A stretch of DNA of 64,000 nt from Glandiceps talaboti (Eukaryota > Hemichordata > Enteropneusta > Spengelidae): positions 13,156,322-13,220,321 of the forward strand of contig NC_135570.1 of NCBI RefSeq assembly GCF_964340395.1. The letters run 5' to 3'. A program made the position numbers and the translations under genes. Shown one piece after another: positions 44,301-47,300 of the stretch. The notes beneath the pieces were generated by a model. The model did no database searches. It saw only the letters and a program-made list of their open reading frames with translations, and was not told the DNA's origin. The stretch's first letter is position 1; every line of letters begins with the position of its first letter.

Positions 44301-47300
44301 GTCAACAATATTAATTAGTAAGACGTAGATTTAGTCGTTAATTTATTAATTAATTGACGAACCATCGTATTTGATGCTGTGTTTGGTTTTATGTAAGATT
44401 GATGTGTGCTAAGAGTGGAAGCCATTTTGAACACTTAGTCTTCGTGTGTGTTGCTGCATGTCGCAAACTGTATGTTCTACGCTTTCACCGTACATACTCC
44501 TTATAAAAACTGCTGCTAGTCACAACTTAAATGCGTAGATTTAAACCAAAAAATATCATAGCTTTTAGTTACTTCGTCTGCATGCAGTGAATTATTAAAA
44601 TTGGAGTTGAGAACATTGATGTCAGTCGGTACATATAGTTACTACTGAGTCTTGTGTCGTCATCACGCTGTTTGGCAGTGTCCACAAAATTTTGAAAAAC
44701 AGCAGACATTTTTAGACCACTGCTGTTGTTCGTAAGAAGTGAACAAACCAAACTAGATGTGATGACCTCAACTCACTGGGTGTGTGTGATGTTATGTGGG
44801 TGATGGTTCTTGTCTTTGAACTAAATTCTTTTTAACATACTTATTCTATTACAACTTATAACACTGTAAATCTTGCAATTGTTCATTTTTTTTTCAATTT
44901 GGTTAATCTTACGTTCAAATTGCATTCAATTTTGTTGCATAGAAGGCATTTTAAGATGCTATGCCAGTGAAGACAGTGATGGTTTTGGTGATTCAGTTTT
45001 CCATTCCATGTGCATGTATTAGTAGTACATTAGTTCTGGTGGCTGCTGTAGATCGTACTTACTCTTTGCATGCAAAATACAACAGTTGTTTGTGCATATT
45101 GTGCAAGAGTAGGGCACAGCCATTACTAGGACAAATGTTGACACCCCACCCCCACCCCCACCCCTCTGAAAAAATAGAGCAAATATTGTGTAGGGAGATA
45201 TAGATCAAAATGACACCCCAAAAAGTGCTTCCTACTGGCAAGTTTTCTTATAATGTCAAACTTTACCTATTTTTGGCTCATGATGGCAAATATTACAGCA
45301 AAAAATTACCTTAGTTACTGGAATAAAATGAAATAAATGGAAAAAATAACAAGATTTACAGTGTTAGTTTACATTAACTTCTTATTACAAGTTGCTGTCA
45401 TGTGCTTTTAAAAACACTGCTAACATCTGTGTTGTGCTATACATTGATCAAACCATTTCATCTCACCTTTACATCTTAAAGTCAGCCATCACGTCAGACT
45501 TTACTTTTAAATGTCAGCATTCCATTTACGCATACATAAATTATAAATGTAATATAAAAAAGCAATTACTGGTAGTAATTTTGTTTTTGAAATTTGTGTT
45601 ATATTTATTTATTTAATATTTATTTTTTATTTATTTTTTATTATTTATTTATTTTTATTTTATTTATTTATTTATTTATTTATTTATTTATCCATTACAA
45701 TGACTGCACCCACAATGAAACTGATACATTTACATGTACACATAGATGCAATGTTTTCGTTGTTATTTATAGCACGTGTCCACAATGTATTTAAAGGCAC
45801 ACATACCATCACATTTTGACACTAATATATATCACATATAAATTTCTATCCTTGTATGCTAAACCTGATATTTGGCCCTGCAAGTAATCTCAAACACTAT
45901 ACCCTTGTACATTTGGAAAAAAAAAAATTGATGAAAGCTGCTTATTCAAAAATCCTCCATAAATTTGACAATTTCTACAGCTGCCATTATAATCAAAATG
46001 AATACCAGTATATTGGATGAAATATATGTATCAATATATACAACATAATGTATTCTACACTAAGCCTAACCTTTTCACCACCAACGCGGGAACGTGCAAA
46101 TGCTAAAATGACAACAAAGTAAAGAAATCATCAAATTTGCAACATTCTTCCCACTAGGTTGAACCTGTTGTGGGAGGGTGTGCAGTTATTTACCTGTTTT
46201 GTCTAGTGAAATGCATTTGACAGATAATACATATGGGCCAAATATTCAGGTGGCATACTTGCATACTCACAAAGTGTTCCCCTTAAACAATATATTAAAC
46301 AAGAGTGCTCTTGGACTCACAATTTCAGAGGTGTCTCTGTGTTTGGAATGAAATGAAATGTACATTTCAAGTATTTCAAAAAATGTAAAAATGGTTCCAA
46401 AACAGTCCCACTTTACTTCTTGAATTCTTGTTTCGACACGTGTCAAATTTTCCACCTTTACAGAGAACATATGCCTTTAGCCAAATATGAAAAATATTAA
46501 GCTGCTGTAGTTTCAAGTCCAAAAAAAATTTGAAGGGAGAACACAACACACACAAATGCATATACAACAATACATCGCATTCATCATAGTCGGTTTTATG
46601 TAATGTGTTTTTTCTTCCCCTTGTAACATTTTCTTCCTGCATGCAGATAAAGTACTGCCAGCTGAAAGAAACTGGTTAGGTAAGACAGATACAAAATATA
46701 TGTAACATGTACACAGCTCAACTTCATCTTTCCTCGTATCTTAGTATGCCCAGTATTTCTCAGTGTGAGTGTTCTGTTTGTTGTCATCCCTCCCCAAGAT
46801 TACCCGACATTTCTTAGTGACTTTTCTGTTCACTATTGTCCCTCCCCCTGATTTCTGATGTTGGCTCTTCTCTTCTTTGTCATCCCTCCCCTGATTATCT
46901 GACATCTCTGTCAGGTGTGTCGATCAATGCAATGTCAACACCATAGTAAGGACAAGTATTGGTCGTCTATATGTTGAAACTTGTGACTTGTGAATATTAA
47001 TGTATAGCTGTACTTTAGTGGTGACCATTTTGCAAAAGAAATGCAGTGAGTTTATTGCAGTCTAATTTTAGAGTCGTCTGCAAGTATTCATTTTCTGGTG
47101 AACTACGATTTAAATCATTTGCGTCTATGTAGATGTTTGTGAGTCATCATCTCGAAAGCTGAAAAGAACGTGACTGATGCCATCAGTCTTTCAAAAATGT
47201 GATACAAGGCTTTATATGAAACTAGTACAGGTATAAAATCGTTGGTGTTTTTTCATAATTGAAAATGAAATTTAGGAGATATGCATCACACACGGTATTA

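Follow-up and report, generated by a model that had tools for sequence, protein, structure and literature searches.

A candidate 33-nt cassette microexon in intron 3 of the OGDH gene of Glandiceps talaboti

The window, that is, the whole 64,000-nt stretch of Glandiceps talaboti DNA analysed here, carries on its plus strand the coding region of an OGDH gene (17152–60511). The region comprises 18 coding exons, ends with a stop codon at 60509–60511, and encodes 1001 residues when the candidate exon described below is skipped. A human OGDH sequence served as bait in the exon search, and the exon borders were afterwards taken from the sequence of the window. The predicted protein contains the four Pfam domains 2-oxogl_dehyd_N, E1_dh, Transket_pyr, and OxoGdeHyase_C, which form the OGDH E1 set. 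Exon 3 (38600–38702, plus strand) consists of 34 codons and one nucleotide of a split glycine codon, and it includes an SADLD motif. The 10,891-nt intron 3 (38703–49593, plus strand) hosts the candidate, and exon 4 (49594–49694, plus strand) is the next coding exon on its 3′ side. Farther downstream, a tandem array of 6.1 copies of a 101-nt unit (55111–55728) starts within the 3′ end of exon 11 and extends into intron 11. The units of the array copy the end of exon 11, with changes, and continue mostly with CAG/GTTGGT, so that several near-identical decoy donors follow the true donor of exon 11. Upstream of OGDH, the minus-strand open reading frames at 4600–12780 resemble, by eye, a gene for a proton-dependent peptide transporter (POT/SLC15). 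The reading frame at 12302–12763, which holds the apparent first exon of this transporter-like gene, has by itself no Pfam match at E ≤ 0.001. A 60-nt tandem array of 7.4 copies (9346–9793), located in the region of this putative gene, has long open frames on both strands.

The candidate cassette exon occupies positions 46647–46679 of the plus strand. The sequence reads TTTTCTTCCTGCATGCAG/ATAAAGTACTGCCAGCTGAAAGAAACTGGTTAG/GTAAGA, where slashes mark the exon borders; the acceptor ends in CAG, and the donor GTAAGA lies at 46680–46685 of the same strand. The acceptor region (46590–46646, plus strand) is free of AG over 55 nt (46590–46644) and contains a CU-rich tract, two UGC motifs (TGCATGCAG), and the terminal CAG. 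An earlier note on this DNA had described a strong acceptor and a strong donor that bound 33 nt in phase 1-1 with AG/GT borders, and rereading of the sequence agrees with this description. The reading of 11 residues between exons 3 and 4 and the flanking junctions at 38702 and 49594 were likewise confirmed from the sequence. Inclusion would be in frame and would place the 11 extra residues 14 residues after the SADLD segment. Recursive splicing via the AG/GTAAG that closes the 33 nt on their 3′ side was dropped by eye, as this AG has no preceding pyrimidine tract.

The splice sites were scored with position weight matrices trained on the 17 donors and 17 acceptors of the OGDH gene itself, the donor matrix with a consensus as a prior. 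In this gene-trained model, the candidate acceptor scores 13.1 and the donor 8.9, and their sum of 21.9 is beaten by two of the 16 internal OGDH exons (range 13.5–25.1), exons that themselves trained the model. Within intron 3, one of 544 AG and five of 846 GT dinucleotides score at least as high as the candidate sites, the candidate being counted in both cases. No pair of sites 3–60 nt apart other than the candidate reaches 21.9 on either strand of the window. Two hundred dinucleotide shuffles of intron 3 yielded no in-frame open pair as good as the candidate, and a pair in any phase in one shuffle. In 18 control segments of this genome, each 10 kb long (180 kb in total, both strands), the gene-trained model found no pair at the candidate level. 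These counts argue against the main rival explanation, which holds that a strong acceptor and a good donor have been paired by chance in a long intron and are spliced in rarely or never; we regard it as quite possible while short of probable.

The explanation by chance pairing draws its strength from a generic model made of consensus matrices, which was never trained on the OGDH gene. Scored in this way, 52 of 300 shuffles of intron 3 contain a pair at least as good as the candidate, which is in frame in 12 of them; block shuffles give 64 and 12 of 300, respectively. The 180 kb of control sequence, read on both strands, hold 17 such pairs, three of which are in frame and open and derive from two acceptors, corresponding to approximately 0.09 for an intron as long as intron 3. 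Across the window, this model reports six pairs on each strand, with three in frame on the plus strand and two on the minus strand. One in-frame pair on the plus strand (7087–7107, 21 nt) scores higher than the candidate and is probably spurious. It is a very strong splice-like pair inside what appears, by eye, to be the territory of the transporter-like gene on the opposite strand, and serves as a yardstick for false positives. Other in-frame pairs share the real donor of OGDH exon 17 (59872–59886), are only 3 nt long (63691–63693), or probably use a real donor of the transporter-like gene (12331–12378). If the pairs at 7087–7107 and 63691–63693 are taken as false, the rate becomes approximately 0.17 pairs for such an intron. 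Fitting an exponential to the tail of the scores on the minus strand gives 0.25–0.88 pairs in any phase per 64 kb. The significance of the candidate thus shifts with the choice between the gene-trained and the generic matrices. Overall, a candidate-like pair is expected in intron 3 by chance with a frequency of roughly 0.5–10%, or 17% by the most pessimistic count, which makes it unusual, not impossible. It also counts in favour of chance pairing that the candidate was selected by a reader seeking oddities.

The 11 codons of the candidate look coding-like. Their score of 2.5 is close to the exon mean of 2.2, as against an intron mean of −3.2, and is equalled or exceeded by 4.45% of 20,000 stop-free intronic 33-mers, giving a likelihood ratio of 4.5. 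A codon score typical of exons speaks against a chance pairing of sites. It would also be conceivable that the 33 nt are part of a repeat or a mobile element in which splice sites are present by coincidence, and a short, imperfect 41-nt repeat in three copies (46755–46891) does lie approximately 75 nt downstream of the candidate. However, the 201 nt around the candidate (46560–46760) matched their own locus alone in the 590-Mb genome, as searched by a method that passes over highly frequent words, and the neighbourhood of the candidate has no other long match within the window or the 180 kb of control stretches. A repeat origin is disfavoured by this lack of a second copy in the sequences searched, and we give it next to no credence.

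Comparison with relatives bears on whether the inclusion of the exon could be the standard state of the gene. With the candidate skipped, the alignment of the stretch encoded by exons 3 and 4 to human OGDH scores 66.5 bits, versus 60.3 bits with the insert. The skipped form shows a five-residue gap slightly upstream of the junction, where human OGDH has extra residues, and the junction itself aligns. No insert is present at the junction in the human protein or in 21 of 22 bacterial relatives, and the remaining relative (L016) does not reach the site. The bacterial relatives are distant E1 genes, 15 of the 22 from Acetobacter, so that the rows of the alignment are not independent. A search for relatives in a viral collection found none. 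The stretch at the junction is kept from bacteria to human: it consists of an aromatic residue, His, Gly, or Arg, then Leu, Phe, or Ile, and the dipeptide DL three residues on, DL being present in 18 of the 22 bacterial rows. The insert would split this conserved stretch at the exon 3–4 junction, a point in favour of chance pairing. In the predicted structure of one bacterial relative (L013, modelled with 10 of the 22 loci in the alignment), the insertion site is located between two short helices with a pLDDT below 50, and the model was given no evidential weight. Since neither human OGDH nor the 21 bacterial relatives that cover the junction contain an insert there, the skipped form is likely to be the standard enzyme and the ancestral one; an included form, should it be made, would be a variant.

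A constitutive microexon, by which the OGDH of this lineage would always contain the 11 residues, is accordingly hard to reconcile with the alignment, as the skipped protein can be aligned across the junction with its human and bacterial relatives, whose shared conserved stretch would be interrupted by the insert. There is a precedent in another mitochondrial gene, MPC1, for which PMC9929638 reports a constitutive microexon of 4 nt. The splice sites of the candidate are, moreover, as strong as those of the other exons of the gene, unlike the weak sites reported for eMIC-dependent exons of the fly in PMC8797185. We consider constitutive inclusion very unlikely.

The segment of E1 around the candidate is subject to alternative splicing in vertebrates. 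According to PMC7969005 and PMC4963198, mammalian OGDH uses exons 4a and 4b in a mutually exclusive manner, with the Ca2+ motif DADLD in 4b, and the neuron-specific exon 5 of vertebrate OGDH directly follows 4a/4b and is joined preferentially to 4a in neurons. The latter source describes that in human neurons 45 residues from the two adjacent exons 4a and 5 replace 34 residues that include the Ca2+ motif (PMC4963198). As presented in PMC7969005, exon 5 has its highest level in brain and is neuron-specific in mouse brain data, apart from a trace signal in oligodendrocytes; reporter data show its inclusion lowered by U2AF65 and PTBP1 and raised by TIA-1. The same text covers the Ca2+ motif and the exon duplication in invertebrate OGDH: Lottia and Amphimedon have the motif and no exon duplication, and SADLD is reported in several nematodes, rotifers, and insects, with its effect on Ca2+ affinity stated there as unknown (PMC7969005).

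Exon 3 of the window has SADLD at the position of the mammalian Ca2+ site DADLD and is the apparent counterpart of mammalian exon 4b. It encodes 34 residues before the split glycine codon, and the human segment from IRGH to TDKL also has 34 residues. From these equal counts, intron 3 appears to correspond to the vertebrate intron that holds exon 5, a correspondence based on residue counts. The apparent match of the intron to the place of a known vertebrate cassette exon is a further point against chance pairing. A low-stringency tblastn search over 17356–50104 (introns 1–4) for further copies of exons 3 and 4 gave, among the matches listed, only the exons themselves above noise. A genome-wide search with exon 3 likewise returned one match at E ≤ 0.001. 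A mutually exclusive pair based on duplication of either exon was rejected, given one copy of each in introns 1–4 among the matches listed. The single copy of exon 3 is in line with the state of Lottia and Amphimedon, the motif without the duplication.

The sequence of the insert was compared with a presumed peptide of vertebrate exon 5, which had no match in a PDB chain or in paper text. In an ungapped alignment, the two have D1, E7, and R8 in common. The similarity is equalled by 3.2% of random intronic peptides, by 11% of those that start with D, and by 15% of permutations. Sequence homology of the insert to exon 5, as represented by the presumed peptide, was rejected, because the anchored score is not significant and the local score is unremarkable. 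The earlier note had placed the candidate in the segment where alternative exons of mammalian OGDH reportedly affect the regulation of the enzyme. The candidate does adjoin the alternatively spliced segment of mammals, but two events were merged in that statement: the Ca2+ switch of 4a/4b is a swap of exons at the position of window exon 3, not an insertion. The further suggestion of an invertebrate counterpart of the mammalian switch is plausible by position, in the apparent exon 5 intron, but is not backed by the similarity score. In its strongest form, this suggestion would make the candidate an invertebrate orthologue of exon 5, optional, probably nerve-specific, independent of the 4a/4b duplication, and dating back at least to the divergence of this lineage from the vertebrates, with the sequence drifted too far to be recognised and the intron kept; we consider such orthology improbable.

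Neuronal microexons that depend on the eMIC domain provide a second point of reference. PMC8797185 and PMC10551640 list as their features UGC near the acceptor, an AG-free zone, and a CU-rich tract. The candidate has UGC near the acceptor, a long AG-free zone, and a CU-rich tract, features that discriminate weakly. Two UGC motifs in the last 16 nt of the acceptor are also found at 24 of 2090 intronic AGs and in the acceptor of exon 13. The 55-nt AG-free zone is matched or exceeded at 4.3% of 2057 intronic AGs, and three of the 17 real acceptors of the gene have a longer one. The CU-rich tract and the two UGC motifs were counted as support, set beside the vertebrate exon 5 that PTBP1 reduces. 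Where eMIC exons combine a weak acceptor with a strong branch point, the candidate has the top-scoring acceptor of the intron under the gene-trained matrices. Positions −18 to −48 contain no yUnAy branch point, and a GTAAC at −21 is near-consensus by eye. The motif TGCATG (UGCAUG) occurs in 10 copies in intron 3, versus approximately 3.7 expected, and was given no weight, because it is common in this intron.

Taken together, the evidence tilts our judgement slightly towards the 33 nt being a genuine, used cassette microexon of OGDH. This leaning results from the chance rate, the codon likelihood ratio of 4.5, and the position of an optional exon of vertebrates, set against the broken conserved stretch; the weights that we assign to a used cassette exon, chance pairing, constitutive inclusion, and repeat origin are judgements, not calculations. 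If the candidate is a used cassette exon, its skipping would produce the standard E1 enzyme, and its inclusion would introduce the 11 residues after the SADLD segment, at a place that apparently lies in the vertebrate exon 5 intron. The 33 nt may be spliced in optionally and in a tissue-specific manner, most likely in nerve or muscle. The insert could alter the N-terminal regulatory segment of E1, and with it, for instance, the response to Ca2+ or the contacts with partner subunits, and so might affect the regulation of the enzyme.

Titles and abstract openings of the literature on OGDH and microexons revealed nothing on OGDH splicing. Fly OGDH isoforms are mentioned in PMC10323237, in passages that describe no insert at this site. 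E1 is the rate-limiting subunit of its complex. If the candidate is used, tissue-specific tuning of E1 by splicing at this spot would extend beyond the vertebrates that have the 4a/4b duplication. RNA-seq from any invertebrate could then serve to test how old the neuronal OGDH switch is.

The candidate can be compared with three known systems. Like vertebrate exon 5, it would be an optional exon directly after the exon of the Ca2+ site and before the exon encoding DLxxVFxLPxTTxIGG, apparently in the same intron. It differs in length, 33 nt as opposed to the approximately 45 nt of vertebrate exon 5, in lacking significant similarity, and in that no 4a partner was found in introns 1–4 among the matches listed. 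The mammalian exons 4a and 4b affect the same E1 segment, and window exon 3 is apparently equivalent to 4b. However, in mammals two homologous exons are swapped, whereas here one copy was found, with SADLD instead of DADLD. With the neuronal microexons that depend on eMIC (SRRM3/4, Srrm234), the candidate shares its small in-frame size, AG-free zone, UGC near the acceptor, and CU-rich tract; unlike them, it has strong rather than weak splice sites and is not preceded by a strong CUAAY branch point.
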